From assembly GCA_019637335.1 (NCBI GenBank), contig JAHBVV010000001.1, positions 441,440-505,439 of the forward strand: a stretch of 64,000 nt of DNA, given 5' to 3'. This stretch comes from Candidatus Hydrogenedentota bacterium (lineage in GTDB: Bacteria; Hydrogenedentota; Hydrogenedentia; Hydrogenedentales; JAEUWI01). Position numbers and translations under genes: made by a program. Shown piece by piece: positions 4,547 to 56,210 of this stretch. Positions within the stretch are counted from its first letter, which is position 1. Every line of letters starts with the position of its first letter. The notes under the pieces were generated by a model. That model was not told where the DNA came from, did no database searches, and saw only the letters and a list, made by a program, of their open reading frames with translations.

Positions 4547-4786
4547 TAATTGGGTACGAGCCCTGTTCGCGTTCATCTGCGTCCATTCGCGGTTCAACTC
4601 GATTGGTTTCGGGTATGCAGGGATGGGCTACGGGGGCGCGGGCAGTTGGCGGTGCGGGCGGTGCGGGCGGCTTTGCCGCCGTGGACAGGCGGGACGCCTA
4701 TCCTACTTTGCGCCTTGCGGCGCGGTGGACGGGCGGGGTAGTCGGCTGGATTTGGTGGCGCGGCGTGGTTTGGCTCGACCCGGGCC

Positions 4787-4888
4787 GGGACGTACCCCCG
4801 CGTTGGGGCGTTTGTGGGTTGGGGGCGGTGTGTCTGAGTACGTTGGGTGTGCGCTTCGAGGGTAGGGGGGTGTGCGGCGGTACGTCCC
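4787..4888 (+). repeat. 102-bp terminal-inverted-repeat element, copy 1
   Basis: Starts GGGACGTACC and ends GGTACGTCCC, a perfect 10-bp inverted pair (14 of 15 if extended to GGGACGTACCCCCGC). The inside is G/T-rich. It is preceded by about 110 bp also repeated before copies 2 and 3 (it contains GGCTGGATTTGGTGGCGCGG). Confidence 0.85.
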
Positions 4889-5055
4889 TTGGTTGGGCTG
4901 GGTTTTCGGGGAGGGGCGTGTTTGGATCGTTGTTGCGCCTTGCGGCGCTTTGGATAGGCGGGACGGCTGTCCTGCTTTGCGCCTTTTGGCGCGGTGGACG
5001 GGCGGGGTAGTCGGCTGGATTTGGTGGCGCGGCGTGGTTTGGCTCGACCCGGGCC

Positions 5056-5157
5056 GGGACGTACCCCCGCGTTGGGGCGTTTGTGGGTTGGGGGCGGTGT
5101 GTCGGAATACGTTGGGTGTGTGCTTCGGGGTTGGGGGGGTGTGCGGCGGTACGTCCC
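5056..5157 (+). repeat. 102-bp terminal-inverted-repeat element, copy 2
   Basis: Same length and same terminal GGGACGTACC/GGTACGTCCC pair as copy 1, with a few internal substitutions. It has the same left flank ending CCCGGGCC. Confidence 0.85.
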
Positions 5158-5200
5158 TTTTCTGGGCTGGGGATTGGTGGTGGTCGCGTACGTTGTAGTG

Positions 5201-8165: not shown

Positions 8166-8265
8166 AAGGGATCCAATAATCGATAAGGGCTGAAGGCCCG
8201 CTTCATAGCGCTTGTAATTCATCGGTAATGTCAGAGCTGCACCCCTTACTTTGTTGACCCCGGCC

Positions 8266-8367
8266 GGGACGTACCCCCGCGTTGGGGCGTTTGTGGTTTG
8301 TAGGCGGTGTAACGGAATACGTTGGGTGTGTGCTTCGGGATTGGGGGTATGTGCGGCGGTACGTCCC
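8266..8367 (+). repeat. 102-bp terminal-inverted-repeat element, copy 4
   Basis: Perfect 10-bp terminal pair GGGACGTACC/GGTACGTCCC. First of three copies spaced exactly 128 bp apart. Confidence 0.85.
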
Positions 8368-8393
8368 TTGTTTGGGGTGGATCGAACCGGGCC

Positions 8394-8495
8394 GGGACAT
8401 ACCCCCGCGTTGGGGCGTTTGTGGCTTGTAGGCGGTGTAACCCAATACGTTGGGTGTGTGCTTCGGGGTTGGGCGTGTTTGCGGCGGTACGTCCC
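8394..8495 (+). repeat. 102-bp terminal-inverted-repeat element, copy 5
   Basis: The left end is GGGACATACC, one change from the consensus; the right end is intact. A 26-bp spacer separates it from copy 4. Confidence 0.83.
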
Positions 8496-8521
8496 TTGTT
8501 TGGGGTGGATCGAACCGGGCC

Positions 8522-8623
8522 GGGACGTACCCCCGCGTTGGGGCGTTTGTGGTTTGTAGGCGGTGTAACGGAATACGTTGGGTGTGTGCTTTGGGGTTGG
8601 GCGTATTTGCGGCGGTACGTCCC
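8522..8623 (+). repeat. 102-bp terminal-inverted-repeat element, copy 6
   Basis: Both ends are intact, with the same 26-bp spacer (containing TTTGGGGTGGATCGAACC) as between copies 4 and 5. This shows that the 128-bp unit was duplicated in tandem. Confidence 0.85.
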
Positions 8624-8750
8624 TTGTGTGGGGTGGGTTATTGTGGACGGGAATGTCTGCGTCCCGGTGGGGGGACGTGTTAAGCTATGCGGGAACGCGG
8701 AGGTGTTCGGGCGTGGCGCCTGAACGGTCCGGGTCCCGGGAGAGCTTTCG

Positions 8751-16835: not shown

Positions 16836-16845
16836 GTTATTTGGG

Positions 16846-16922
16846 TGGACGGGGTGGACGGAGTGGACAGAGTGGACAGAGTGGACAGAGTGGACAGAGT
16901 GGACAGAGTGGACAGAGTGGAA
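16846..16922 (+). repeat. 9-bp tandem repeat GTGGACAGA
   Basis: About eight copies of the unit GTGGACAGA/GTGGACGGA lie between the TetR promoter and the PASTA/G8 gene. The same unit occurs inside coding regions at 38612 and 41892. Confidence 0.9.
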
Positions 16923-27048: not shown

Positions 27049-27093
27049 GGGGGAGCGGTATAGGGGGCCGCTCGCGGGGGGGAGGTTTCTTGC

Positions 27094-27480
27094 GGGTACA
27101 GCCTCGGGCGGTTTTTGGGGTGGTCTTTTCGGGGCGGTGGGTGGTATATCCGCCCGATGCAGTCCCCCTTTTTTCGGGTACAGCCTCGGGCGGTTGTTGG
27201 GGTGGTCTTTTTGGGGCGGTGGGTGGTGTTTCCGCCCGATGCAGTCCCCTTGGTGTGGTATTTCCGCCCGATGCAGTCCCCCTTTTTTCGGGTACAGCCT
27301 CGGGCGGTTGTTTGGGGTGGTCTTTTTGGGGCGGTGGGTGGTATATCCGCCCGATGCAGTCCCCCTTTTTTCGGGTACAGCCTCGGGCGGTTGTTTGGGG
27401 TGGTCTTTTTGGGACGGTGGGTGGTATTTCCGCCCGATGCAGTCCCCTTGGCCCCTTCTTCCGCCCGATTCAGTTCCCTT
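27094..27480 (+). repeat. 82-bp tandem repeat block
   Basis: Four units begin with GGGTACAGCCTCGGGCGG at 27094, 27176, 27290 and 27373, and end in CCGCCCGATGCAGTCCCC. CGGGCGG and CCGCCCG within each unit can pair across a G/T-rich middle. The second unit has an extra 32-bp duplicated end. It fills the whole topA-smg gap, where no gene is seen. Confidence 0.85.
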
Positions 27481-29382: not shown

Positions 29383-29770
29383 CGTGCCGTGGCGGGTACA
29401 GGCACCCGCGATTCTCGGGTGGTTGGGACGCCTTCGCGGCTGGGGTGGTAATTGTCGCGGTTGAGAGTCCCCCTGGGGCGGCGGAGCCGCGGAGCTTGAA
29501 CGTGGAGCCCGTGCCGTGGCGGGTACAGGCACCCGCGATTCTCGGGTGGTTGGGGCGCTTTCGCGGCTGGGGTGGTTGTTGTCGCGGTTGCCAGTCCCCC
29601 TGGGGCGGCGGAGCCGCAGCGCTTGAGGGTGGCGCCCGTGCCGTGGCGGGTACAGGCACCCGCGATTTTTGGGTGGTTGGGGCGCTTTCGCGGCTGGGGT
29701 GGTTGTTGTCGCGGTTGCCAGTCCCCCTGGGGCGGCGGAGCCGCGGAGCTTGAACGTGGCGCCCGTGGCT
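29383..29770 (+). repeat. 127-bp tandem repeat, three copies
   Basis: Units begin CGTGCCGTGGCGGGTACAGG at 29383, 29510 and 29637. Each holds a short stem (CGGGT-ACAGGC-ACCCG), a G/T-rich middle and CCAGTCCCCCTGGGGCGG near its end. No gene is seen between the SCP2 gene start and the groL terminator. Confidence 0.85.
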
Positions 29771-38511: not shown

Positions 38512-40290
38512 ATGTCCGACCCTGAAATTCCCGATGCCGTTCAATCCGAAAGCGGGGAGGGCGGGCTGACCGCCGGACAGCGCGGTGGCGAGGAAGCGAT
38601 CGTCGAGTGGGGTGGACAGAGTGGACCGAGTGGACCGAGTGGACCGAGTGGACCGAGTGGGCCGAGTGGGCCGAGTGGACCCGGCGGGGAGCGCTTCGTT
38701 GCGCCGGCGGTCTCGCGGGATCTGCCCGAGCTGGTTCAGCCGCTTGACCGGGATCGGGCGGGGACACTGCTGCTGGCCGCGCTGGGGATGGGGGTGCTGG
38801 GGAATATCCTGATCTTTCCGGATCTGCTTGGCGCGGGGGCCACGCTGTGGGCGGTGGCGCTGCTGGCGGGGCTTGCGTGGAGCATACGCCGGCGTCGGCC
38901 CGACGGCGGGGCCGGGGCAAATGTGGGATTGATTGGCGGGGGGAAGTTCGCGGTGCGCGGGTTGGATGGGCTGTTTCTGCTCGCACTTGCGGCGGCGCTT
39001 TGCGCCAGCTGGCGGGACGCGCCTTTCCTTCGGGTTTGCAGCGTATTGCTTTTCTTTCTGACGGTGATCTGGATACAGCTTTTGGTCAACGGCATTCGCC
39101 TTTTTCCCGCGCCCACGGTGGTGGCGGCGATGCACGTGCAGCGCACGCTGTACGCCTGGCTGCTCTTGCCCGTGTTTCAATTGCAACTAGCGCGCGCGGC
39201 TCGCCGGGAGCGCGGCCGCGGCCTGTTTGACGGCACGTTGAAGGGCGTTATCATCGCGTGTGTGCTGGTGCTTTTCTTTGGCGCGTTGCTGGGCCGCGCC
39301 GACGCACGGTTCAGCGCGCTCTTGTCCTCGTTTACGGATGCGAACTGGGCGACGTGGTTTCGGCACGTGTTCTGGATTGCGGCGTTCTTCGGGCTGGCGC
39401 TGGTGGTGTGGACCAACCGGCCGCGGGCGCATCCGTCGTTCTGGTATGGGGAGCCGGAGGAACTTCTGACTGAAATGAAAGCGAAGGGGCTTGCCCTGGC
39501 GCGGCTGGACCTGTTGATACCGATGGCGGCGCTCGATGTGCTGTTTGGCGCTTTCGTGGCCGTGCAGTTGGGCTATTTCTTTGGCGGCGATGCGTATGTC
39601 CAGGAGACGGCCGGGGTTTCTTATGCCGCGTATGCGCGCCGGGGTTTCTTCGAGTTGGCGGCGGTGGCGGCGCTGGTGTTGCCGATGCAACTGCTTTTCG
39701 ACTGGTGGCTGCGGAATGAAAGCGCCGGGGCCCGGCGCGTTTTCCAGCTCCTCGCGGGGATCCAGGCGGCGCTGCTGCTTTGCATCCTGGCGTCGGCGGC
39801 CCACCGCATGGCGATCTATCAGGAGGTCTATGGCCTGACCCGGCTGCGGGTATACGCGAGCGCGGGCATTGCGTGGATCGGAATGGGAATTGTATGGCAC
39901 ACGCTCACTGTGTTGCGGGATCGGCGGGATTCTTTCCTGATGGGGCCGATGGCGGCGGCGGTGGCGCTTTTTCTTGCGGTGCAGGTGATGAATCCCGATG
40001 CCTTGATCGCGCGGGTGAATATTGAGCGGATGAAGGCCAATGCGACCGCGGTTGAGGCGCCTGAGGAAGGGCGTGTACGCCGGCAGGGCGGCAGCGGCGC
40101 GGTGCAGCTGGATGTGGCGTATCTTCGGGTGCTGAGCCTGGATGCGGCGCCGGTGCTGGAGGGCGCCCTGGCGCAGTTGCCGGAGAATGAGCGCGGACTG
40201 CTGGTGGTCCACCTCGCGGCGCAGCGGGACCGCGTTGCGAGGGCGGGGCTGCGCGCGTGGAGTTGGAGCCGCGCGCGGGCGGGGGATTGA
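38512..40290 (+). CDS. DUF4173-type polytopic membrane protein with GPS repeat
   Basis: A 592-aa protein with about 12 hydrophobic segments (from LLLAALGMGVLGNILIF to MAAAVALFLAVQVMNPDALI). The GVSYAAYARRGFFELAAVAAL and GLTRLRVYA motifs are those of DUF4173/DUF4153 proteins, whose function is unknown. The N-terminal soluble tail carries (GPS)n encoded by the 9-bp tandem repeat at 38612-38682. The start ATG is preceded by GAAGGGAG. The C-terminal part after residue 510 is soluble. It is transcribed away from the methyltransferase. Confidence 0.78.
   Translation: MSDPEIPDAVQSESGEGGLTAGQRGGEEAIVEWGGQSGPSGPSGPSGPSGPSGPSGPGGERFVAPAVSRDLPELVQPLDRDRAGTLLLAALGMGVLGNILIFPDLLGAGATLWAVALLAGLAWSIRRRRPDGGAGANVGLIGGGKFAVRGLDGLFLLALAAALCASWRDAPFLRVCSVLLFFLTVIWIQLLVNGIRLFPAPTVVAAMHVQRTLYAWLLLPVFQLQLARAARRERGRGLFDGTLKGVIIACVLVLFFGALLGRADARFSALLSSFTDANWATWFRHVFWIAAFFGLALVVWTNRPRAHPSFWYGEPEELLTEMKAKGLALARLDLLIPMAALDVLFGAFVAVQLGYFFGGDAYVQETAGVSYAAYARRGFFELAAVAALVLPMQLLFDWWLRNESAGARRVFQLLAGIQAALLLCILASAAHRMAIYQEVYGLTRLRVYASAGIAWIGMGIVWHTLTVLRDRRDSFLMGPMAAAVALFLAVQVMNPDALIARVNIERMKANATAVEAPEEGRVRRQGGSGAVQLDVAYLRVLSLDAAPVLEGALAQLPENERGLLVVHLAAQRDRVARAGLRAWSWSRARAGD
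38612..38682 (+). repeat. 9-bp tandem repeat inside a coding region (GPS)n
   Basis: Seven to eight copies of GTGGACCGA/GTGGGCCGA, in frame, encode Gly-Pro-Ser repeats in the DUF4173-type protein. The unit is related to GTGGACAGA at 16846. Confidence 0.9.
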
Positions 40291-40478: not shown

Positions 40479-43400
40479 TCAGCGCTCGTTCCAGACGAGC
40501 TGGTTGAGGAGTTCGGGCTGGTTTTTTGCGGCCCATAGCTTCAGGAGGACCATGGCGAGGGTGTCGCCGCGGGTGATGGCTTCGTAGTGGTCGTGCCTGG
40601 CGCTGGCGCGCGGGAGGGGGCCGCTGTCGAAGAAGATGCGGAGGGCTTCGCCGGCGAAGTATTCGGCGCGGGCGAGGTATGCGGGGTCCTGTTCGAGGAG
40701 GTGGCACTGGATCATGAGCTCGATGGCGTCGGCGAGGGCGCCGGGGTAGAGCGGGATCGTGGTGTCGGGCGCGCTGTCGAGGTATCGCGCGGCGGCGGCG
40801 CGGGCGAGTTCCCGGTATCCGGCGATGGGCCGCTGGGCGTAGCGGAGGAGGCACATGTTGGCGAGCTGGGCGTCGGTCGCCTCGCCGTAGCCGGTGGCCC
40901 AGGGTCGGGAGAAGCTGCCGGGCTCCAGGGTTTCGGTGTGGGCGGTGGTGGCGAAGCCGCGCCCGCCGGGGGCGAGGTCGTGCGCGAGGTTGAGGTAAAC
41001 GCGGTCGGATTTTTCGGCGCAGGCGCGCATGCGTGCGGCGGTGGCGGCGGGCACGCGGGCGGCGCCGTCTTCCAGATCAATGGCGAGGGAGAGGTTGCTT
41101 GACGGCCAGATCATCATGCCTTTGGAGCGATCGGCGCTTTCGGCGGGGAGGGCGCCGGAAACGGGGTGGCGGCGGCCTTCGAAGTAGCCCACGAGGGTCT
41201 TGATGTGTTCGAGGTAGGCGGGGTTCTCGGTGGCGGCCCAGGCGTGCGCCCAGGTGGCGATGTAGAAGCCGCCGTGGCGGGGGTATTCGTCCTTTGTACC
41301 GGTGCGGTGGGCGGTGAAGCCGGCGTGGCGGGAGAAGGCTCCGGTGGCGTGGTCGCCGATCTGGTGCTCCCAGAGGCCGGTGGCGAATTGTGCAGCGGCT
41401 TCGGGCGCGAGGGAATAGGCGCGCGGCCAGAGGACCCAGGGCCGGAAGAATTCGTGCGTGCCGATGTCGCCGCCCGAGGCCAGGAAGGGCTTTTCCTCGC
41501 GGAAATCCCAGGAGAGGTGTTCGCCCCAGGGCAGCAGGTTCGTTTCGGGGTGGCGGGCGCGGGTGAAAAACCACTCCAGGGCGTCATCGGCGGCTTCGGC
41601 GTATCGGGTGTCGCCGGTGGTTTTCGACAGCGCGTAGAGGAGCTGGTAGAGGTTCTGATCGTGCATGGGGTTGGCGCCGGTGAGGGAACGATCATGGTTG
41701 CGGATGCCCCATTCCTCGCGCGGGATGTTTCGGACCTGTTCGAGGCGATCGCCTTCCAGCAGCGCGCCGGTGGCGCGGTCGAGCGCGGCCGCGAAGAGGG
41801 GGGTGTGCTCGTCGCCGTAACGGTCGCGCCCGTGGGCGAGCATGGCGTCGGCGTAGGCGCGCGCGGTGTCGAGGAGGCGGTCTTCGAGCGGGGTGGACGT
41901 AGTGGACGGAGTGGACGTAGTGGACGTAGTGGACAGAGTGGACGTAGTGGACGGAGTGGACGTAGTGGACAGAGTGGACAGAGTGGACGTGGTGGACGTG
42001 GTGGATGTGGTGGACGTGGTGGGCGTGGTGGATTCGCCGCGGCGAATGGACGGGGTGTTTTTTGCGCGGGCGAGGCATTGATCGACCCAGCCTTTGAAGG
42101 TGTACTCGGGGGGCGGCGGGGTGTCGAGCGGGAGGCAGGCGAGATCCGCGGGATCGCGGTAGACCGCGCCGATGTCGACGGCCGCCGTGCCGCGCTGTCG
42201 CGCCTCGGTGTCGTACAGTTTTTCGAGGCGCTGGCCCTGGCTTTCGGCCCAGGTCCCGTAATGGACGGTGGGCCAGTCCTTTTCATCCACGCGCCCCTGG
42301 AGGTGTTCTTGCATCCACTGGACGGCGCGGGGCGTGAGGATGTAGGGGCGGTGGCAGGCGTCCTGCTCGAAGGCGGCGTCGAGAGTGTGGGGGATGCCCG
42401 CGCGATCGAGAAGCGACCTGGCGGCCGCCAGGTCTTCCTTTACGCCCCGGGTGAGCGCGGCGCCATCCTCGTCGGGGTCGATGATGCTGTCGGACGTGCC
42501 GTTGAGGAAGATCGTCGCGGCGTGCGGCGCGAAGAGGGCGGTCATTTCGCCGAAGTCCATCATGGCGGCGAAGTCGCGGTAGGGGATCTGGGTGCAGGGC
42601 TTGCTCTTGACGCCGAGGCTGGGGATGTAGCCCCAGCCGCTGATGATCGCGGCTTTCACGCGGCTGTCCAGGATGGCGAGGCTGGTGTTGCTCGCGCCAC
42701 CGAGCGACGAGCCGATGCTGCCGATGCGTGCGGCGTCCACATCGGGGCGGCTTTCGAGGTAGTCGATGCCGCGCATGAGGTCCCACACGATTTTGCCGAG
42801 GATGGAGCGCTTCATTTCGTTTTCCATGAAGGGGCCGCGCGCTTCCTTCGGGAGGTGGTAGAGGTCGTGGCCGCGCGCGCCCATCTTGCGTTCGGCGTGG
42901 CGCTCTTCCTCGCCGATGGTGTCGACGGCGAGAAGGGCGAAACCGTGTTTCGCGTAGAGCTGGCCAGCGTATTGCGCGTAGAGGGCGGATTTTGAGCCGC
43001 CGTGGCCGCAGGCGAGGACAATCGCGGGGAAGGGGCCCTTGCCCTCGGGGCGGTAGAGCAGCGCGGTGACGCGGGAGCCGGGTTCGCTCGCGTAGGTCAC
43101 GGATTCGATGGTGTAGCCGTCTCCCGGGGTTGTGCGGTGCGTGTTGGCGTCGAGGGGCGGTCGTGATTCGGGGAGGGTAAGGGCCTCTGCCATGCCCGCG
43201 CGGAGTTTGGCGGCGCGATCAGGCCAGGCTGCGGGGTCCAGCGCGGCGGCGTGATCCCAGCGGGCCGTGCCGATGGCGAAATACTTGTTTTCGAAGGGCG
43301 GGGCCTTGCGGGAGGCGTACCAGATGCGCCAGGCGCCGTCGTCGAGCTTCAACACGGACTGGCTCGTGGTGTAGTGGGACTCCCAGGGGCGGGATTCGTC

Positions 43401-44228
43401 GGGAGTGAGGACGGGGTTGCGCGGGGCCTTGATCCAGGTTCGCCCGTCGAGGCTGATGGCCGCGCCGATGGCGGTGGTGTTCGGGCGTCCGGTCCAGTAG
43501 GCGCCGTACCACATGATGTAACGGTCGACGTGCTTGATTACGGCGGGGTAGAAGAGGCGGTCCCGCTCCCAGGGCTGATCGATGACGAGGCAGGGATCGG
43601 CGTCGGGTTCCCAGGCGACGCCATCGCCGCTGCGCGCGTGGCGGATGACCCAGGGCTCCGCGCGCACGTCGGTGTACCACATGCGGTATTCTCCGTCCTC
43701 GCGGATGATTGTGGGGGCGTAGACGCCGTCCAGTTGCGCGGGGGATGGGTCGGACCACGCGATGCCGTCCTCGCTGGCCGATTCGTGGAGGGTGTGTTCG
43801 CCCGAGCCGCCGGTGAGATCCGCCGCGGTGAACCACATGCGGAGTTTGCCGTTTTCGCGCAGGACCGAGCCGTCCGGGCTTCGGAGCATGGTGGGGGTCA
43901 ATACCGAGCGCCGCCCGTCGCCGAAGGCGAAGACGGGATCGGGGCGCTTGGTGAAGTTCATGCCGTCGGCGCTGGTGGCGAGGCCCATCTGAAAGACGCG
44001 GCTGGCCACGTCTTTTTGGGAGCCGCAGTAGTAGAGGGAGAATACGCCGTTCTCTTCGATGACGCAGGGGGCGAAGAGGTGCGTGTCGTCGAAGGCGCCG
44101 GGGTCGCCGAGGGAGACGGCGGGCGCATTGGCATCGCGGACCCAGTGCTGGTTCAGTGCGGGATGGGTAGCGGCGGCGGCTGTGGTGTAGAAGAGCAGGC
44201 AGCACAGGATCGGGAGGCATCTTGGCAT
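40479..44228 (-). CDS. three-module secreted protein: GH43-like propeller, alpha/beta hydrolase, alpha/alpha-barrel
   Basis: A 1249-aa protein with a signal peptide (LPILCCLLFYTTAAAA). Residues about 25-335 are a five-bladed propeller of glycosidase type (HLFAPCVIEENGVFSLYYCGS, MWYTDVRAEPWVIRH, MWYGAYWTG). Residues about 360-700 are a dienelactone-type alpha/beta hydrolase with an intact nucleophile in GSSLGG (S508). A low-complexity linker (about 730-780) is built of Ser-Thr-Thr/Leu repeats from the 9-bp microsatellite. Residues about 785-1240 are an (alpha/alpha)-barrel like pectate-lyase or glycosidase proteins (NHDRSLTGANPMHDQNLYQLLYA, HGGFYIATWAHAWAATENPAY). It probably acts on plant or algal polysaccharide; the activities are inferred. 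Confidence 0.75.
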   Translation of the reverse strand: MPRCLPILCCLLFYTTAAAATHPALNQHWVRDANAPAVSLGDPGAFDDTHLFAPCVIEENGVFSLYYCGSQKDVASRVFQMGLATSADGMNFTKRPDPVFAFGDGRRSVLTPTMLRSPDGSVLRENGKLRMWFTAADLTGGSGEHTLHESASEDGIAWSDPSPAQLDGVYAPTIIREDGEYRMWYTDVRAEPWVIRHARSGDGVAWEPDADPCLVIDQPWERDRLFYPAVIKHVDRYIMWYGAYWTGRPNTTAIGAAISLDGRTWIKAPRNPVLTPDESRPWESHYTTSQSVLKLDDGAWRIWYASRKAPPFENKYFAIGTARWDHAAALDPAAWPDRAAKLRAGMAEALTLPESRPPLDANTHRTTPGDGYTIESVTYASEPGSRVTALLYRPEGKGPFPAIVLACGHGGSKSALYAQYAGQLYAKHGFALLAVDTIGEEERHAERKMGARGHDLYHLPKEARGPFMENEMKRSILGKIVWDLMRGIDYLESRPDVDAARIGSIGSSLGGASNTSLAILDSRVKAAIISGWGYIPSLGVKSKPCTQIPYRDFAAMMDFGEMTALFAPHAATIFLNGTSDSIIDPDEDGAALTRGVKEDLAAARSLLDRAGIPHTLDAAFEQDACHRPYILTPRAVQWMQEHLQGRVDEKDWPTVHYGTWAESQGQRLEKLYDTEARQRGTAAVDIGAVYRDPADLACLPLDTPPPPEYTFKGWVDQCLARAKNTPSIRRGESTTPTTSTTSTTSTTSTLSTLSTTSTPSTTSTLSTTSTTSTPSTTSTPLEDRLLDTARAYADAMLAHGRDRYGDEHTPLFAAALDRATGALLEGDRLEQVRNIPREEWGIRNHDRSLTGANPMHDQNLYQLLYALSKTTGDTRYAEAADDALEWFFTRARHPETNLLPWGEHLSWDFREEKPFLASGGDIGTHEFFRPWVLWPRAYSLAPEAAAQFATGLWEHQIGDHATGAFSRHAGFTAHRTGTKDEYPRHGGFYIATWAHAWAATENPAYLEHIKTLVGYFEGRRHPVSGALPAESADRSKGMMIWPSSNLSLAIDLEDGAARVPAATAARMRACAEKSDRVYLNLAHDLAPGGRGFATTAHTETLEPGSFSRPWATGYGEATDAQLANMCLLRYAQRPIAGYRELARAAAARYLDSAPDTTIPLYPGALADAIELMIQCHLLEQDPAYLARAEYFAGEALRIFFDSGPLPRASARHDHYEAITRGDTLAMVLLKLWAAKNQPELLNQLVWNER
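41892..42032 (+). repeat. 9-bp tandem repeat encoding the STT linker
   Basis: About 15 copies of GTGGACGTA/GTGGACGGA/GTGGACAGA on plus. Read on the minus strand they give Ser-Thr-Thr, Ser-Thr-Pro and Ser-Thr-Leu units joining two catalytic modules. Confidence 0.92.
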
Positions 44229-46273: not shown

Positions 46274-47608
46274 CTAGTCGTTGCGTTTCTCACGGTCGCG
46301 CTCGTCGAGGTTTTCCATGCGCGCGCGGATTTCGGCTTCTTTTCCGTTGGCGGTGGGGCGGTAGTAGGTTCCGCGCGGCACGCCGTAGTCCTGGGGGACG
46401 TAGTTGTCCTCGAAGTCGTGGGCGTACTGGTAGTCCTTGCCGTGGCCGAGGCGTTTCGCGCCCTTGTAGTGGGCGTCTTGCAGGTGCTGGGGAATTTCCA
46501 CCGTCTTGCCCTCGCGCACATCGGCCAGGGCGGCGTCGATCGCGGTGTAGGCGGCGTTGCTCTTGGGCGCGGCGGCGATGTAGGTGACGGCCTGGGACAG
46601 GAGGATCCGGGCTTCGGGCATGCCGATGAACTCGCAGGCCTGGAAGGCGGCGTTGGCCAGGACGAGGGCCATGGGGTCGGCGTTGCCGACGTCTTCGGCG
46701 GCGGCGATGCAGATGCGGCGGGCGACGAAACGGGGCGTTTCGCCGGCTTCGAGCATGCGGGCCATCCAGTAGAGGGCGGAATCGGGGTTGCTTCCGCGCA
46801 TGGACTTGATGAAGGCGGAGGCCGCGTCGTAGTGGGCGTCGCCCGTGCCGTCGTAGTGGAGGAGTTTCCGCTGGATGGACTCGCGGGCGGCCTCCAGGTC
46901 GATGTGGAGCTTTCCTTCGGTGGGCGGTGTGGTCAGCAGGGCGACTTCCAGGGCGTTGAGGGCGCGGCGGACGTCGCCCTCGGCGTAGCGCGCGATGTGG
47001 TCGAAGGCGTCGTCGTCGACGGTGATTGCGGCGGGGTCCATGCCCAGTTCGGGGTGGGTGAGCGCGCGGCGCATCAGGCGGACCAGGGCGGCTTCGTCGT
47101 GCCGCTTGAACTCGAAGATCTGGGAGCGCGACAGGAGCGGCGCGACGACGGAGAAGAAGGGGTTTTCGGTGGTGGCGCCGATGAGGGTGATGTTGCCGTT
47201 TTCCACGTCGGGCAGGAGCGCGTCCTGTTGGGCGCGGTTGAAGCGGTGTAGCTCGTCGACGAATACGATGGTGCGGCGCTGTTCGTGGATGCGGCGCTGT
47301 TTGGCCTGGGCGAGGAGTTCCCGGAGCTCCTTGACGCCGGAGGTGACGGCGTTGAGGGGTTCAAAGGCCGATTTGGTGCGCATGGCGATGATGCGGGCGA
47401 GGGCGGTCTTTCCGGTGCCGGGGGGGCCGTAGAGGATGAGCGAAGTGATGCGGTCGGCTTCGATGGCGCGCCGGAGGAGCTTGCCTGGCCCGAGGATGTG
47501 TTCCTGTCCGGCGAATTCGTCGAGCGTGCGCGGGGCCACGCGCCGCGCGAGGGGGGCCTCGGCGCGGAGGCGATCGGCGGCGGCGGCTTCAAAGAGATCT
47601 TCGGGCAT
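46274..47608 (-). CDS. rarA: replication-associated recombination protein RarA (MgsA)
   Basis: A 444-aa AAA+ ATPase related to the clamp-loader group. Walker A is GPPGTGKT (61-68), Walker B is VDELHRFNRAQQDALLP and the sensor is GATTENPFF. The C-terminal MgsA/WRNIP1 domain has SFIKSMRGSNPDSALYWMARML and ends with GKDYQYAHDFEDNYVPQDYGVP. The protein acts at stalled replication forks as a tetramer. The C-terminus is slightly longer than in E. coli, with a charged end. It has its own start near the divergent P-type ATPase. Confidence 0.95.
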   Translation of the reverse strand: MPEDLFEAAAADRLRAEAPLARRVAPRTLDEFAGQEHILGPGKLLRRAIEADRITSLILYGPPGTGKTALARIIAMRTKSAFEPLNAVTSGVKELRELLAQAKQRRIHEQRRTIVFVDELHRFNRAQQDALLPDVENGNITLIGATTENPFFSVVAPLLSRSQIFEFKRHDEAALVRLMRRALTHPELGMDPAAITVDDDAFDHIARYAEGDVRRALNALEVALLTTPPTEGKLHIDLEAARESIQRKLLHYDGTGDAHYDAASAFIKSMRGSNPDSALYWMARMLEAGETPRFVARRICIAAAEDVGNADPMALVLANAAFQACEFIGMPEARILLSQAVTYIAAAPKSNAAYTAIDAALADVREGKTVEIPQHLQDAHYKGAKRLGHGKDYQYAHDFEDNYVPQDYGVPRGTYYRPTANGKEAEIRARMENLDERDREKRND

Positions 47609-47883
47609 GGGGAGTTCCTGACACGTCCAAACTATGCCCGCCGCGCGCCGTGCGGATCAATATGCGCCTCCGCTCGTGTCTTCGGACACGATGGCCCCGA
47701 GGAAACACGTGAATCGGGTGCGCCGGCATGCGGCAGGATCGAGCGTTTTGGCGTTGCGCCCCACCGATCCCGAGGCGGCGGCGAAGGGCGTAATGCCCGG
47801 ATGTAAGTGGACAGAATGATCCGCGATTCGGTATAAGCAACCTTCGGATGGCTGGAAACAACCAGACACGAAGGCACGAAGTT

Positions 47884-50619
47884 ATGAAGACGACGCGGAT
47901 GGATGGCGCCTCGCCCACGGCCACGCGGCGCGCCTGGCATGCACTGGAGAGCGCGGAGGCCCTCGAGCGGCTGGAAAGCTCCGAGAACGGACTCGCCTCC
48001 GACGAGGCCGCACGGCGCCTCGAAGAGCATGGCGCCAATCGGCTCGCCCCGCCGGCGGGCAAGTCGCCCCTCCTGCGTTTCCTCTCCCACTTCCACAACA
48101 TGCTGATCTATCTGCTGCTCGTGGCCGCCGTGGTCACCGCCCTGCTCGGCCACTGGGTGGACACAGGCGTCATCATGGGCGTCGTGTTCATCAACAGCTT
48201 TATCGGCTTCATGCAGGAAGGCAAGGCGGAACGGGCGCTCGACGCCATCCGCAACCTCCTCTCCCTGAAGGCGATGCTGCTGCGGGACGGGCGCAAGGCG
48301 CCTGTGCCGGCGGAGGAGATCGTCCCCGGCGACATCGTGCTCCTTCAGTCGGGGGACAAGGTGCCCGCGGACCTGCGGCTAATCAAGGCGAAGAACCTGC
48401 GCATCGACGAGTCCATCCTCACGGGCGAGTCGGTGGCGGCGTCGAAGCACACGGACTGTGCGCCGGAGCCGGCGGCATTGGGCGACCAGCGGTCGATGGC
48501 CTTTTCGGGCACGCTGGTCACTTACGGCCAGGCCACGGGCGTTGTGACGGCGACGGGCGAGCACACCGAAATTGGCCGGATCAGCGCCATGCTTTCCGAT
48601 GTGGAGCCCCTGGCGACGCCACTGATCCAGAAGATGTCCGCCTTTGGCCGCGTCCTGGCCGTGGTCATCATTGGTGTTGCGGCCGTGACCTTCTCCATCG
48701 GCGTATTCGTCCACAGCTTTCCCGCAGGCAGTACGTTCCTCGCCGCCGTGAGCCTGGCCGTGGCGGCCATTCCGGAGGGCCTGCCGGCCATCATGACCAT
48801 CACGCTGTCCATCGGCGTGCAGCGCATGGCGGGGCGGCACGCCATCATCCGGCACTTGCCCGCCGTGGACACCCTGGGCGCCGTGACCACCATCTGCTCG
48901 GACAAGACCGGCACGCTTACCCGCAACGAGATGACGGCGCGTTCGGTGCATCTTCCGGACCAGCGCTTCGCCGCGGAAGGCGTGGGCTACGCCCCCCGGG
49001 GCCAACTGCACCTCGACGGCGAGGCGGTCGGATCGCCCGCCGAGCATCCCGCCTTGCTGGCCCTCCTTGAGACCGGGCTCTTGTGCAACGACGCGTCACT
49101 CCGGGAGGACCAGGGGCAATGGCACATTGACGGCGACCCGACGGAGGGCGCGCTCCTCGTGCTGGCGCAGAAGGCCGGACTCGACCCCGAGGCCCTGTCG
49201 GAAGCCCACCCCAGGCTTGACTCCATTCCCTTTGAATCGGAGCACCGCTACATGGCCACGCTGAACGGCGACGGCGCGGGCGGCACGCGTATCTGCGTGA
49301 AGGGCGCGCCCGAGCGCATCCTGGACATGTGCACCGCCCAGGGCTGGGGCGAGGACGAATGCGCCCTCGACCGGGCCTACTGGGAGCAAGTGCTCGACGG
49401 CGAGGCCCAGTTGGGCCAGCGGCTGCTGGCGGTGGCCTACCGCACGTCCGAACCGGATCGCAGCACGTTGGACATGGCGGTCGTGGAGGGCGGCCTGACG
49501 CTCCTTGGCGTGGTGGGCATCATCGACCCGCCGCGGGACGAGGCCATTCGGGCAATCGCCGAATGTCAGTCGGCGGGCATCCGCGTGAAGATGATCACCG
49601 GCGACCACGCGGCGACGGCCAGGGCTATCGGCCAGGAACTTTCCATCGGCGACGGCAAGCACGCCCTCACGGGCCGCGACCTCGACAAAATGGGTGACGA
49701 CGAGCTTCGGAAGGCGGTCGAGGAGACGGACATCTTCGCTCGGGTTGACCCCGAACACAAGCTACGCCTTGTTCGGGCGGTCCAGGCGAACGGCCACGTG
49801 GTGGCCATGACGGGCGACGGGGTGAACGACGCCCCGGCGCTGAAAAGCGCGGACGTGGGCGTGGCCATGGGCCGGCGGGGCACGGAGGTCTCGAAAGAGG
49901 CGTCGGACATGGTGCTTACCGACGACAACTTCGCCTCCATCGCCCATGCCGTCGAGGAAGGGCGCACGGTCTACGACAACCTCCGCAAGGCGATCCTTTT
50001 CGTGCTGCCCGCGAGCGGCGGCGAGGCGCTGACCATCATCGCGGCCGTCCTGCTCGGTTGGGAGGAGATGCCCATCACGCCGGTCCAGATTCTCTGGGTG
50101 AACATGGTGTGCTCCATCACCCTCGGTATCGCCCTGGCCTTCGAGCCGCCCGAGAAGGACGTGATGCGGCGCCCCCCGCGCCACCCAAAGGCGAACCTCC
50201 TGTCCAGCCACTTCCTGTGGCGCATCTCCTTCGTATCCGCGCTATTGTGCGCGGGCACTTTCGGGGTCTTCCTATGGGCATTGGACAAGGGCGCCGACAT
50301 CGAAGTCGCCCGCACCGCCGCGGTGAACACCCTCGTGTTTTTCGAGGTCTTCTACCTCTTCGGCGTCCGCCACATCCACTCATCCGTGCTCAACTTCGAG
50401 GGCATATTTGGCAACCGCGTGGTCCTCGCGGCCGCACTGACCATCGTCGTTGCTCAGTTGTTATACACCTACGTTCCTCTCTCGCACACGCTCTTTGGCA
50501 CCGCGTCCCTCAACCCCGCCTTCTGGGCCGTCATCCTCGCCGTCGCGGCCGTGGTATTCGTTGTCGTCGAAATGGAAAAGGTGATTCTGGCTCGTATTCG
50601 CTTCGCCAAGATTTCCTAG
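47884..50619 (+). CDS. P2-type cation-transporting ATPase (CtpF/PacL-like)
   Basis: A 911-aa P-type ATPase with ten membrane segments. The N-terminal cation-ATPase domain (LESSENGLASDEAARRLEEHGANRL), actuator loop SILTGESVAAS, phosphorylation site DKTGT (D340), and hinge TGDGVNDAPALKSADVGVAM are all present. TM4 has IPEGLPA, seen in Ca/Na/H pumps. TM6 reads NMVCSITLGIALAFEPPE instead of the NLVTDG of SERCA-type pumps, as in the CtpF-like group. Substrate could be Ca2+ or a monovalent cation. Its codons favour C endings (GCC, CTC, TTC), in contrast to the GCG/CTG style of neighbours, suggesting transfer. ATG 47848 is an alternative start. Confidence 0.87.
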   Translation: MKTTRMDGASPTATRRAWHALESAEALERLESSENGLASDEAARRLEEHGANRLAPPAGKSPLLRFLSHFHNMLIYLLLVAAVVTALLGHWVDTGVIMGVVFINSFIGFMQEGKAERALDAIRNLLSLKAMLLRDGRKAPVPAEEIVPGDIVLLQSGDKVPADLRLIKAKNLRIDESILTGESVAASKHTDCAPEPAALGDQRSMAFSGTLVTYGQATGVVTATGEHTEIGRISAMLSDVEPLATPLIQKMSAFGRVLAVVIIGVAAVTFSIGVFVHSFPAGSTFLAAVSLAVAAIPEGLPAIMTITLSIGVQRMAGRHAIIRHLPAVDTLGAVTTICSDKTGTLTRNEMTARSVHLPDQRFAAEGVGYAPRGQLHLDGEAVGSPAEHPALLALLETGLLCNDASLREDQGQWHIDGDPTEGALLVLAQKAGLDPEALSEAHPRLDSIPFESEHRYMATLNGDGAGGTRICVKGAPERILDMCTAQGWGEDECALDRAYWEQVLDGEAQLGQRLLAVAYRTSEPDRSTLDMAVVEGGLTLLGVVGIIDPPRDEAIRAIAECQSAGIRVKMITGDHAATARAIGQELSIGDGKHALTGRDLDKMGDDELRKAVEETDIFARVDPEHKLRLVRAVQANGHVVAMTGDGVNDAPALKSADVGVAMGRRGTEVSKEASDMVLTDDNFASIAHAVEEGRTVYDNLRKAILFVLPASGGEALTIIAAVLLGWEEMPITPVQILWVNMVCSITLGIALAFEPPEKDVMRRPPRHPKANLLSSHFLWRISFVSALLCAGTFGVFLWALDKGADIEVARTAAVNTLVFFEVFYLFGVRHIHSSVLNFEGIFGNRVVLAAALTIVVAQLLYTYVPLSHTLFGTASLNPAFWAVILAVAAVVFVVVEMEKVILARIRFAKIS

Positions 50620-51082
50620 CCCTCTGGGCCGGAACGCCGCCGCCGCGGACAGGGCGCGGCCACCAAGTATGCCCGAGAGACTCACCTTTTGGGCGAGACG
50701 GGTATGTCCACCTTGATCCCGGCGACCATGAGGAACCGTACGGCGGCCAGGTTGGCGACGGCGTTTGACCCTTCGGCGGGGAAGAGGTATTCGCGGGCGG
50801 TGTGAATTCTGCGAGCGCCTGGGGGTTTGGTGGTTTCCGAGTTTCTAACCTGTTTTGCGGTAATTGCTTGCGCGGTGTCCCGGCGGCTGGCGGCTGCGGC
50901 GCCAGACTTGTTGCAGCGGGCGTGGATGTCTGCTATGCTGGAGGTGGCAGTGATGTCGTTTGTCCCAGGTGACATTGTGATTCAATTGTCGTGAATAGAC
51001 CTTACGCAGTACTGTGCTGCGGCCAATTGCTCGGGTACAGTGAGTCGGGTTGCATCAACCAAACATTCAGGAGTGCACTGGT
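50620..51082. other. region between the P2 ATPase and the Cys-rich repeat protein
   Basis: About 460 bp. It holds a probable gene fragment on the minus strand (50682-50820). The rest should contain the promoter of the Cys-rich gene, but I see no convincing -35/-10 pair; TTGTCG-N18-TACTGT starting near 50987 is the best guess. Confidence 0.45.
50682..50820 (-). pseudogene. C-terminal fragment resembling an M20-type peptidase
   Basis: On the minus strand GARRIHTAREYLF and then ANLAAVRFLMVAGIKV precede a stop at 50682. The R-x-IHT-x-x-EYL layout is typical of the last helix region of M20/ArgE/DapE-like hydrolases. Upstream the frame has no family features, so it seems to be a remnant left by rearrangement. 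Weak call. Confidence 0.3.
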
Positions 51083-51799
51083 ATGATCGAAGAACGCGAA
51101 CAGAACGTTGTAGAAGAAACCGCTGCTCGCGGTGGCAGTCTGAAGAAATGGGCGGTGTTTACGGCGGCGATGGTGGCGCTGTCCGGCGTGGCGACCGCGA
51201 CGGCGCTTGCCGGCGCTGGCGAGGGCACGTGCCCGCTTTCGGCCGCGAAGGCGCTTGCGGCGTCCTCCGAGGGTGAAGCCAAGACGTGCGACAAGGCGAC
51301 GGCGGCTTCCTCCGAAGGCGAGAAGGCGTGCGACAAGGCGAAGACGTGCGACAAGGCGACGGCGGCTTCTTCCGAGGGCGAGAAGGCGTGCGACAAGGCC
51401 AAGACGTGCGACAAGGCGACGGCGGCTTCCTCCGAGGGCGAGAAGGCTTGCGACAAGGCCAAGACCTGCGACAAGGCGACGGCGGCTTCCTCCGAGGGCG
51501 AGAAGGCGTGCGACAAGGCGAAGGCCGCCTCTTCCGAAGGTGAGAAGAAGGACGGCTGCTGCCCGTCGAAGGTAGCGAAGGCTGCCTCCTCCGAGGGCGA
51601 GGCGAAGACCTGTGACAAGGCCAAGGCGGCTTCCTCCGAAGGCGAAGCCAAGACTTGCGACAAGGCCAAGGCCGCTTCTTCCGAGGGCGAGAAGTCTTGC
51701 GACAAGGCGAAGACCTGCGACAAGGCGACGGCGGCTTCCTCCGAAGGCGAGGCGAAGACCTGCCCGCTTTCCGCCAAGAAGGCCGCTGAAGCGGTCTGA
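51083..51799 (+). CDS. exported Cys-rich AASSEGE repeat protein
   Basis: A 238-aa protein of unknown family. Residues about 20-45 form a signal or anchor segment (KKWAVFTAAMVALSGVATATALA). The rest consists of ten repeats that begin AASSEGE, each followed by one or two CDKA cysteines (KACDKAKTCDKAT in full form). One repeat has GCCPSK instead. TCPLSA occurs once before the first repeat and TCPLSAKK once after the last. There are 16 cysteines outside the signal and almost no hydrophobic residues, so it is unlikely to fold as a globular domain; metal binding or cross-linking are possible. CAGGAG precedes the ATG and a strong terminator follows. Confidence 0.8.
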   Translation: MIEEREQNVVEETAARGGSLKKWAVFTAAMVALSGVATATALAGAGEGTCPLSAAKALAASSEGEAKTCDKATAASSEGEKACDKAKTCDKATAASSEGEKACDKAKTCDKATAASSEGEKACDKAKTCDKATAASSEGEKACDKAKAASSEGEKKDGCCPSKVAKAASSEGEAKTCDKAKAASSEGEAKTCDKAKAASSEGEKSCDKAKTCDKATAASSEGEAKTCPLSAKKAAEAV

Positions 51800-51823
51800 T
51801 TCGCATCAGTTTAGACATCATTG

Positions 51824-51861
51824 CGCGCCCGTTGGATAATCCAGCGGGCGCGTTTTTTTTT
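51824..51861 (+). terminator. rho-independent terminator of the Cys-rich gene
   Basis: A 13-bp stem (arms 51824-51836 CGCGCCCGTTGGA and 51840-51852, one G-U pair, 3-nt loop) followed by nine T residues. One of the strongest terminators in the window. Confidence 0.95.
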
Positions 51862-51880
51862 GTGCACCCGGGCCGGGGAT

Positions 51881-52215
51881 TGAATCGCTCGCCCGGGCAT
51901 CCTTTGTGTCGCTGGCGTTCGTGAACACGGGCACACGAACGGGCGTTGCCCGATCGCGTGGCACGGTGTGGTTCTGGTGCTGGTTGGATGTGGGGCTTGA
52001 ATCGCTCGCCCGGGCTTTCTATGTATCGCTGGCGTCCGTGAACACGGGCACACGAACGGGCGTTGCCCGATCGCGTGGCACGGTGTGGTTCTGGTGCTGG
52101 TTGGATGTGGGGCTTGAATCGCTCGCCCGGGCTTTCTTTGTGTCGCTGGCGTTTGTGACTACGGGCACACGAACGGGCGTTGCCCGATCGCGTGGCACGG
52201 TCGGCGGCCTGGGTT
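51881..52215 (+). repeat. 117-bp tandem repeat, about 2.9 copies
   Basis: Units start TGAATCGCTCGCCCGGGC at 51881, 51998 and 52115. Each has the hairpin CGGGC-GTT-GCCCG followed by GATCGCGTGGCACGGT and a G/T-rich stretch. The period is 39 codons, so the minus strand stays open through all copies (GNARSCARVHERQRHKE and similar). No gene is supported between the terminator and the GatB/YqeY gene. Confidence 0.88.
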
Positions 52216-52282: not shown

Positions 52283-52726
52283 TCAGCCGAGGGCTTCGCG
52301 GCAGAGGTCGTTGAGCATTTTGCCGTCGGCCTGGTCGCCCAGTTCCTTTTTCAGGGCGCCGGTGAGCTTGCCCGCGTGGGTGACGTCGGGGTTGGCGGCG
52401 AGGAAGGCCTGGATCTTCTCGCGGACCTGCGCTTCGGAGAGCTGTTTGGGGAGGAACTCTTCGAGGATGGCGATCTCGACTTTGAGTTTTTCCACTTCCT
52501 CGGTCTTGCCGAGTTCGGCGTAGGTATCCACGCTCTGTTGGCGTTTCTTGGCTTCGGAGCGCAGGGTGGCGATGGCCACGTCGTCGGCGAGGCCCGCGTC
52601 CTTCGCGCCTTCCTTCTCCTTCACCAGCAGGGCGGCCTTGGCCATGCGCAGGCATTCGAGGCGCAGGTGGTCCTTGTTTTTCATGGCTTCCTTGAGGGCC
52701 TGCTGCACGTCGTCCTTGATGCTCAT
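52283..52726 (-). CDS. GatB/YqeY domain-containing protein
   Basis: A 147-aa protein of the YqeY family: an N-terminal helical part (SIKDDVQQALKEAMKNKDHLRLECLRM), a middle EEVEKLKVEIAILEEFLPKQLSE and a C-terminal AFLAANPDVTHAGKLTGALKKELGDQADG that forms the tRNA-binding-type domain also found at the end of GatB. Free-standing YqeY proteins are widespread; a role in amidotransferase or tRNA biology is assumed, not proven. AGGAGAAC precedes the ATG. It is monocistronic here. Confidence 0.93.
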   Translation of the reverse strand: MSIKDDVQQALKEAMKNKDHLRLECLRMAKAALLVKEKEGAKDAGLADDVAIATLRSEAKKRQQSVDTYAELGKTEEVEKLKVEIAILEEFLPKQLSEAQVREKIQAFLAANPDVTHAGKLTGALKKELGDQADGKMLNDLCREALG

Positions 52727-53183
52727 TCGGGTGTTCTCCTGGGGCGTTTGGGGTTTGGCGGGTATGGTAGCACGCTGCGGGGGGTTGAGGGTACAGGGGC
52801 ACTCGGGGCGTTGCGTCACCCATTAAGGATGAAAATGGACGGCGGCTTCGCCGCCTGGCAGGCGGGGACGCCTGCGCTCCCAGCCTTTGCCGCTTCCTTG
52901 GGAGGGATGCCGTAATCTGGTTTGTATGAGGCAGTTGTGGTGATGCTGAGGCGTATTTGTTCAGTGCAGAGCAGCATTCGCGGAGCTTGAGGGGCGGAGA
53001 TCCGCCGCAGGAGGATGGCGTCCCTGGCTCCGCCTGATCGATCGCGGCAGTTCCCGGGCGAAGAAAAAGCGAAGAATAACCCCCTTGTTTTCAAAGTACT
53101 TTTTCACCCTCCCGAACCTACGCTGGTTCTTGTTCGAGGGCGGCATCCGAAGGGGATGCCCGCGACGGCAAGAGGGAAAGCTG
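52727..53183. other. region between the YqeY and sigma-like genes
   Basis: About 450 bp without a credible gene. It has a REP-like hairpin (GGCGGCTTCGCCGCC at 52841) and a GC-rich inverted segment around 52860-52890, both of the kind found at 4668 and 7888. Confidence 0.5.
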
Positions 53184-53558
53184 ATGGAACGGGAATTTCG
53201 CAGGTTTGGGGATCGCTACCAGGTGACGTGTTGTCCGGAGTTGATGGCGGCGTACCGGAACGAGGACAGCCCGTGGAGCGAAAGCGAGGCGGAGGTTGCG
53301 GCGGCGATTGCGTGGGGCATGGAGAAGGCCCGCCTGTTGCGGTGGGTTCGCGCGCAGATGCGGCGGCGGCTTACCGCGAGGCAGCGGCGCTGCATTGAGC
53401 TGTATTACTTTGAGGGGCTGACCCACGAGGAGGTCGGGCGGCGGCTGGGATGCAGCACTTCCTCGTCGTGCCGCTCCGTGCAGCGGGGCATCGCGCGGTT
53501 GCGGATTGCGGCGCGGGTGGACCCGCCGGGCGGCGTGCGGCGGCTGTTCCGCCGGTAG
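53184..53558 (+). CDS. sigma-70 region 4-like DNA-binding protein
   Basis: A 124-aa protein whose C-terminal half is a sigma region 4 helix-turn-helix: RLTARQRRCIELYYFEGLTHEEVGRRLGCSTSSSCRSVQRGIARLR. No region 2 is present, so it is not a full sigma factor; it may be a regulator or anti-sigma partner, or the remains of an ECF-like factor. The N-terminal part (FGDRYQVTCCPELMAAY) has no family I know. ATG 53184 is used because of AGAGGG upstream. The longer start at 53085 adds an implausible extension. Confidence 0.7.
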   Translation: MEREFRRFGDRYQVTCCPELMAAYRNEDSPWSESEAEVAAAIAWGMEKARLLRWVRAQMRRRLTARQRRCIELYYFEGLTHEEVGRRLGCSTSSSCRSVQRGIARLRIAARVDPPGGVRRLFRR

Positions 53559-54482: not shown

Positions 54483-54719
54483 GGCTTTGGGCTCCTTTTC
54501 CCGGTAGGGCTTCGGGTCAGGGGCGCATTGTGGCGCAGCCCGCAGGGTGGTGGCAAGTTTATTGGGGGGCGCGTGGAGAATCGTTTGGGAACGGGGCGGC
54601 AATGCGTTGAAAATTCTTGTCGGGCTATCTCTTTCGGGGGTAGTTTGTAAGTTGTTCTATATCATTTATTTATGGGCATGGCTTTCCAAGAAATGTTCCA
54701 AAATGGAAATATAACCTTT

Positions 54720-54965
54720 CAATTGGCCGATATATAACCTTGCAATCAGCCGAAGTTTTGGATTGCAATTGGCCGACTTTCGGAGCAATGAGGTGTGCGG
54801 TGGGGGCGCTGTATTTCAATTGGCCGGGATATAAGGTTTCAATTGGCCGAAGCAAAAACTTTCAATCAGCCGAAGTTTTTGCTTGCTATTGTCGCCCGAA
54901 AAGGTTACAATCAGCCGAAATAAAACCTTTCAATCAGCCGCAGTATAACCTTGCGATCAGACGCC
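54720..54965 (+). repeat. 23-bp phased repeat array upstream of the DUF4143 ATPase
   Basis: The core CAATTGGCCGA or CAATCAGCCGA starts at 54720, 54743, 54766, 54817, 54840, 54863, 54908 and 54931. Degenerate copies lie at 54886 and 54954. Nearly all steps are 23 bp; one 51-bp gap breaks the phase. Between cores lie AT-rich 12-mers such as AATAAAACCTTT and TATATAACCTTG, giving a loose 23-bp consensus (AACCTTKCAATYRGCCGA). The array ends at the base before the start codon at 54966. It could be an iteron-like operator array or a leader for slippage. No cas genes lie near. Confidence 0.9.
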
Positions 54966-56210
54966 ATGAGCAGCCCCGATACCTATACCCGATTCGTCAT
55001 GCCACGCCTCGACGAGGCGCTGGACGATTCGCCCGTGGTGCTCATCGACGGCCCCCGCCAGTGCGGTAAAACGACGCTGGCGCAGCAGGCCGGGGCGGCG
55101 CGCGGATACGCCTATTTCAGTTTCGACGACGACGTGGTGCTGGCGGGCGCCACCGCCGATCCGGCGGGCTTCATCGACGATCTTCCGCCGTACAGCATCC
55201 TGGACGAGATCCAGCGGGCGCCGGATCTGTTTCGCGCGATCAAGGCGAGCGTGGATCGGAAGCGGACGCCGGGGCGCTTCATGCTGACGGGGTCGGCGAA
55301 CGTGCTGCTGGTTCCGCGGCTTTCGGATTCGCTGGCGGGCCGGATGGAAATCCTCCGGCTGCACCCGCTGTCGCAATGCGAGCTGGCGGGGGTGGCTCCG
55401 GACTTTCTGGACGCGGTGTTTGGAGACGGTTTTCCGATGGCGAAGGTCCCGCGCCTGCAGCGGACGCTGGCGGACCGGATCGCGGCGGGCGGCTACCCCG
55501 CGGCGCTGGCGCGGGCGTCATACCGGCGCCGGTCGCGCTGGTACAGCGACTACCTGACGACGCTGGCGCAGCGGGACGTGCGGGATCTGGCGCGGATCGC
55601 GTCGCTGGACGCGCTGCCCCGGCTGCTGTCCCTGACGGCAAGCCAGACGGCGCGTCTGTTGAACGTATCGGACCTGGCGTCGCCGTTCCAGTTGAGCCGC
55701 CCGACGATCCGCGACTACATGACGCTGCTTGCGAGCGTGTTTCTGGTTGACGAGCTGCCGCCTTGGCACACGAACCGGCTGAGCCGCCTGATCAAGACGC
55801 CGAAGCTGCACATCGGCGATACGGGGCTGGCGTGCGCGCTGCTCGGGGTCGACGCGGCGGGGCTCTGGGCGGACCGGGAGCTGCTCGGGCAGTTGCTGGA
55901 GACCTTTGTCTACCAGGAACTGCGGCGGCAGGCGAGCTGGCGGGAGGATCCCATCAGCTTCAACCACTTTCGCGACAAGGATGGCGCGGAGGTGGACGTG
56001 GTGCTGACGTGCGGGCAGCGGGTGGCGGGGGTGGAGGTGAAGGCGTCGGCCACGGTGAAAAAGCATGATTTCCGCGGGTTGCGCAAGTTGCAGGCGGCCA
56101 GCGGGAAGCGATTCCAGTGCGGGGTCGTGCTGTACGACGGCGAGACGGCCGCGCCGTTTGGCGACGGGATGTACGCTGTGCCGATCCGGCGTCTGTGGGA
56201 GCCCGGGTGA
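54966..56210 (+). CDS. AAA ATPase with C-terminal DUF4143 nuclease-like domain
   Basis: A 414-aa protein. N-terminal ATPase: Walker A GPRQCGKTT (29-37, K35), Walker B ILDEIQRAPDLF, sensor LTGSANVLLVPRLSDSLAGR. The middle has YRRRSRWYSDYLTTLAQRDVRDLARI and TASQTARLLNVSDLASPFQLSRPTIRDYM, a winged-helix-like part. The C-terminus FNHFRDKDGAEVDVVL and GVEVKASATVKKHDF is the DUF4143 PD-(D/E)xK-like fold. Families of this type are common as solitary, often multi-copy genes of unknown role. There is no visible ribosome binding site beyond the repeat array. The start could be ATG 54966 or an in-frame codon at 54951. Confidence 0.85.
   Translation: MSSPDTYTRFVMPRLDEALDDSPVVLIDGPRQCGKTTLAQQAGAARGYAYFSFDDDVVLAGATADPAGFIDDLPPYSILDEIQRAPDLFRAIKASVDRKRTPGRFMLTGSANVLLVPRLSDSLAGRMEILRLHPLSQCELAGVAPDFLDAVFGDGFPMAKVPRLQRTLADRIAAGGYPAALARASYRRRSRWYSDYLTTLAQRDVRDLARIASLDALPRLLSLTASQTARLLNVSDLASPFQLSRPTIRDYMTLLASVFLVDELPPWHTNRLSRLIKTPKLHIGDTGLACALLGVDAAGLWADRELLGQLLETFVYQELRRQASWREDPISFNHFRDKDGAEVDVVLTCGQRVAGVEVKASATVKKHDFRGLRKLQAASGKRFQCGVVLYDGETAAPFGDGMYAVPIRRLWEPG

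Follow-up and report, generated by a model that had tools for sequence, protein, structure and literature searches.

What does a bacterium do with a protein put together almost entirely from short, cysteine-bearing repeats? An open reading frame (ORF) in a Candidatus Hydrogenedentota genome raises this question, and it can be divided into three: whether the ORF is a gene, whether the product belongs to a described family, and what its cysteines may be for. The ORF lies in a contiguous stretch of 64,000 nucleotides, here called the window. The gene occurs once in its own genome (7.16 Mb, 55 contigs), and its features and neighbors are collected in Table 1.

A repeat-built, cysteine-rich gene product

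The 238-amino-acid product has a polar n-region of 23 residues, a single hydrophobic segment ending in ALA/G, and a low-complexity part that makes up the remainder. A preliminary description of the sequence had reported AASSEGE repeats and CDKA units between TCPLSA caps, and counting confirms it: 10 exact AASSEGE heptads, 12 CDKA units, two TCPLSA motifs, one CC within the GCC variant, and 16 cysteines. Seven long ORFs of the window contain 53 cysteines among 5342 residues, a local background of 0.99%; at that rate, the probability of at least 16 cysteines in 238 residues is ~3e-9, which bears out the described cysteine richness. The proposed origin by repeat expansion also held, with TRF detecting an array at 51278-51523 (period 60, 95% match). 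The cysteine spacing had been described as kept. This is true inside the four tandem 20-mers but not across the array, where successive gaps are 19, 14, 6, 14, 6, 14, 6, 14, 16, 1, 17, 15, 14, 6, and 15, nor across the family, where the gaps are different in every relative.

Codon comparison of the ten heptads found every pairwise difference to be synonymous (Table 1), and the ORF is therefore a genuine gene. Other arrays tested gave pS of 0.27 to 0.74 and pN of 0 to 0.10, and the heptads are under purifying selection in all arrays tested. Among arrays from the same taxonomic family, the AASSEGE residues are unchanged despite pS of 0.27 to 0.48. Inside most genomes the heptad is identical or nearly so, yet its position 6 differs between genomes (G, A, D, E, or T). 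This constraint exceeds what a mere spacer should need, and a role in modification or recognition was therefore kept as a rival explanation.

The N-terminus is predicted to send the chain across the inner membrane, and the signal segment of the preliminary description stands as a prediction. No lipobox cysteine directly follows the hydrophobic segment, which ends at residue 43; the first cysteine is residue 50 and is preceded by GEGT. The n-region (MIEEREQNVVEETAARGGSLKKWA) has no RR and thus no twin-arginine (Tat) signal, and neither an anchoring domain nor a PEP-CTERM-like C-terminus is present in the sequence. The protein is also predicted to be intrinsically disordered. A low-confidence AlphaFold2 model made from two alignment rows (mean pLDDT 42) suggested only an N-terminal helix and contained no four-helix bundle. 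Strands that it placed at residues 68-135 had a pLDDT below 60 and were set aside.

Table 1. Features of the cysteine-array gene and its surroundings in the window
Feature	Position	Strand	Basis
Cysteine-array repeat protein gene, 238 aa	51083..51799	+	Coordinates, strand, and translation confirmed exact; pN 0 / pS 0.48 in heptads
Predicted export signal (residues 1-43): polar n-region, hydrophobic core, TALA/G cleavage-like site	51083..51211	+	Max KD19 1.80 at residues 25-43; A-x-A/G-like end in most relatives
First TCPLSA cap	51227..51244	+	Sequence
Repeat region, ten AASSEGE heptads	51257..51751	+	Sequence
Four tandem 20-aa units AKTCDKATAASSEGEKACDK	51278..51517	+	TRF; codon comparison
Lone CC variant GCCPSK	51554..51571	+	Sequence
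Second TCPLSA cap	51758..51775	+	Two synonymous differences from first cap
Conserved promoter-like element TGACAT-N17-GAATA	50970..50997	+	Recurrence upstream of relatives; shuffle test
Ribosome-binding site AGGAG	51069..51073	+	9 nt 5' of ATG; sequence
Intrinsic terminator	51823..51853	+	14 pairs then U run, -28.1 kcal/mol, z -7.4
rarA/mgsA AAA+ ATPase, syntenic neighbor	46274..47608	-	Pfam MgsA_C 1.6e-66; position in relatives
P-type cation ATPase, between rarA and cysteine-array gene	47848..50619	+	Pfam; away from gene in other species read
yqeY, syntenic neighbor	52283..52726	-	Pfam YqeY 4.6e-28; position in relatives

Relatives and their genomic setting

Protein and profile searches, with the loci read, identified relatives in 13 of 68 Hydrogenedentota genomes, distributed over five taxonomic families; these counts are lower bounds, because the first profile overlooked one relative (in G004), which synteny then revealed. 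The family of the window, f1, contributes six (including G006, only a fragment at a contig end), f10 three, f3 two, and f6 and f5 one each. The f5 relative carries a different, ordinary signal peptide followed by the same AASSEGE-Cys repeats. Presence of the gene in G002, a genome of the same genus, cannot be judged, because neither rarA nor yqeY was seen there. No relative was identified at an E value of 1e-6 in ~318 genomes outside the phylum, and a search of plasmids also returned none. Near the truncated G006 relative is a small ORF (L079, 1052-1330, minus strand) with a double-glycine-leader-like N-terminus (LTTEDLAQVKGGG).

In eight members (G000, G001, G003, G004, G005, G008, G017, and G026), the gene is next to rarA, although the two are separated by the P-type ATPase in G000 and by other genes in G003. 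Of these eight, six (G000, G003, G004, G008, G017, and G026) have yqeY on the opposite side. The remaining members are elsewhere or on short contigs. As rarA and yqeY are housekeeping genes, this synteny speaks for vertical inheritance rather than a shared pathway. A functional tie to the P-type ATPase was rejected, since in the other species whose loci were read the two genes are not neighbors. A stand-alone sigma-70 region 4 protein is encoded at 53178-53558 of the window, and the G003 and G026 loci have a similar protein close to yqeY.

The statement that the protein resembles no metallothionein or adhesin survived comparison with Pfam, NCBIfam, and PDB. A Pfam hmmscan at E values up to 1 matched no family, and the prokaryotic metallothionein profile was not matched; Pfam and NCBIfam together gave only matches at E > 0.4. 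One of two PDB sequence searches returned a single weak match (E 0.04) and the other none, neither revealing a relative. Homologs were thus found, none of them with a known function, and a literature search found no paper on this cysteine-array protein. The proteins constitute a conserved, previously unnamed Hydrogenedentota family outside those described.

What is kept among the relatives is composition and cysteine number. Complete members have 13 to 20 cysteines, and lysines near cysteine are retained. The mature part has 0 to 2 aromatic residues and 0 or 1 histidine, and for most members the net charge is close to zero (0 in the window protein, -17 in G011). Each N-terminus has one hydrophobic segment, mostly with an end resembling a signal peptidase site. 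The heptad follows the consensus [AG][AG]SSExE, more loosely in f10 (ASGEAE or GAAGEKE), and its SSE motif is common to the families although linkers differ. The heptad-to-heptad distance varies by species from ~15 to 23 residues. Symmetrical TCPLSA caps, as in the window protein, do not characterize the family, in which a motif CP[LMVI][ST][GAS] recurs at varying places. Ahead of the hydrophobic segment, the f3 and f10 relatives have extra cysteines (CACSC, CCxxCxxxC) and several f1 and f6 relatives have histidine and glutamate (HEEHHEE, NEHHD), additions that fit a metal or thiol chemistry.

Expression signals and nearby repeats

A good ribosome-binding site and a strong terminator had both been claimed, and both are borne out (Table 1); together they suggest that expression may be high. 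The promoter-like element TGACAT-N17-GAATA, with 0 or 1 mismatch, lies upstream of all five f1 genes tested and, with a spacer of 18, upstream of the G011 gene. An equal match was reached by 0 to 2 of 300 shuffles, and the 7.16-Mb genome contains only three exact matches. In G004, G026, G008, and G017, the corresponding region reads exactly GGGAAT-N17/18-TGTTGA. Such conservation suggests that expression may be regulated. The -35 box of Escherichia coli RpoE is GGAACTT (PMC8103513), and by analogy the upstream element may resemble promoters of extracytoplasmic-function sigma factors. A search for a broad regulon with GGGAAT-N16-18-TGTTGA gave 32 matches in 10 genomes and no coherent gene set, and the composition of its reversed-pattern control was not matched; we therefore claim only gene-specific conservation of the element.

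Other repeats occur in the window. An intergenic 117-bp unit is repeated 2.8 times (94% match) at 51875-52201, directly 3' of the terminator, and further long tandem repeats lie at 4682-5171, 8262-8636, 27093-27478, and 29383-29767. About ten degenerate units of 23 to 24 bp with CAAT[TC][GA]GCCG (54700-54970) are found immediately 5' of an ATPase-like ORF (54951-56210). Nonamer arrays of GTGGAC(AGA/CGA/GTA) occupy three distant sites (16845-16921, 38612-38681, and 41893-42032), the last encoding a Ser/Thr-rich linker in ORF 40479-44228.

Possible functions of the cysteine array

Our leading explanation, to which we give a probability of roughly 0.4, is that the protein serves as a disordered, exported array of thiols, binding soft metals, buffering oxidants, or both, and acting like a metallothionein from outside the metallothionein family. 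Its N-terminus would route the single-copy protein across the inner membrane. The mature chain, a roughly charge-neutral, aromatic-free polymer of Ala, Ser, Glu, and Lys, would present lysine-flanked cysteines, generally spaced 6 to 20 residues apart. Acting in the periplasm or on the cell surface, these thiols would capture soft metal ions (Cu(I), Zn, Cd, Hg, As), consume oxidants, or do both, while the acidic SSExE heptads might keep the chain soluble and extended or supply carboxylate and hydroxyl ligands. Capacity would be set by the number of cysteines, with spacing free to drift. A cysteine number held within 13 to 20 while unit length and spacing vary is expected of such a capacity function and makes a fold with fixed metal sites less likely. 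Neither DsbB nor VKOR was matched in 11 carrier genomes, in which controls were positive; the thiols may therefore stay reduced. We infer both this metal or thiol chemistry and the regulation of the protein.

Several observations count against the thiol array. The window protein has no CxC and only one CC, the sole metal-related neighbor is a general-cation P-type ATPase that is not a neighbor in the other species read, and the heptad is constrained beyond the needs of a spacer. Known metallothioneins have clustered cysteines, and the bacterial ones (SmtA, PmtA, MymT) are small and cytosolic, often with histidine. The window protein is similarly cysteine-rich and nearly aromatic-free, making metal thiolate chemistry plausible, but it looks exported, is longer and repetitive, and matches no metallothionein profile; its cysteines are scattered, with gaps mostly of 6 and 14 to 19. 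Csp1, an exported copper storage protein with a Tat signal, folds as a preformed four-helix bundle, and each monomer takes up 13 Cu(I) (PMC7558416). Both proteins have many cysteines, and export is predicted for the window protein too; unlike Csp1, the window protein is modeled as disordered, spaces its cysteines irregularly, and lacks a twin-arginine motif.

One unlikely alternative is a disulfide-linked envelope or matrix protein, whose exported chains would be cross-linked through cysteine into a net in the style of chlamydial and planctomycete wall proteins. The protein looks exported and is repetitive, with many loosely spaced cysteines, and cysteine-rich, lineage-restricted YTV proteins have been reported in planctomycete cell walls (PMC8567305). 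Like these and the chlamydial cysteine-rich envelope proteins, it is cysteine-rich, lineage-restricted, and predicted to be exported; unlike them, it is small, has polyampholyte repeats, and has no Pfam match, and no similarity to YTV proteins was detected. The failure to find DsbB and VKOR in carriers argues against routine disulfide cross-linking and weakens this alternative, although other oxidation routes are possible. A length of only 134 to 288 residues, a single copy in its own genome, and the lack of an anchoring domain also count against it.

With comparably low odds, these proteins might be a new, lineage-specific class of cysteine-array proteins, exported and unfolded, whose invariant acidic heptad AASSExE serves as a recognition or modification site, giving a tunable extracytoplasmic thiol polymer with a dedicated promoter. 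Quite unlikely is the related idea of a substrate for a modifying enzyme, which would read the heptad for serine glycosylation or phosphorylation or as part of a multi-core ribosomal peptide precursor, with cysteine as a second site. Residue-by-residue maintenance of AASSEGE in f1 arrays, which a passive spacer would not need, and the shared SSE motif favor such a substrate. However, no maturase, kinase, or glycosyltransferase was present among the five neighbors scanned (RarA, the P-type ATPase, YqeY, the sigma-70 region 4 protein, and a nucleotidyltransferase), and the best-conserved neighbors are housekeeping genes; a distant enzyme is possible. It is more doubtful still that the protein is an adhesin or a sticky polymer of the cell surface. 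Its polyampholyte repeats, with a net charge close to zero and without a predicted fold, would then drive cell-cell or surface association, cysteine being incidental or anchoring; but cysteine number is among the best-kept quantities, and neither an anchoring domain nor a PEP-CTERM-like C-terminus is present. A neutral or spurious repeat ORF with no protein product, as a GC-rich repeat with one stop-free antisense frame might suggest, is already contradicted by the all-synonymous heptad variation, relatives in five families, and the promoter-like element, ribosome-binding site, and terminator.

That the heptad is fixed within a genome yet different between genomes raises the question of what reads it. 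If the thiol-array explanation is true, a poorly studied phylum would have, beyond its cytoplasm, a disordered, repeat-tunable store of thiols, an unusual, simple sponge for metals or redox chemistry. The idea is directly testable with recombinant protein.
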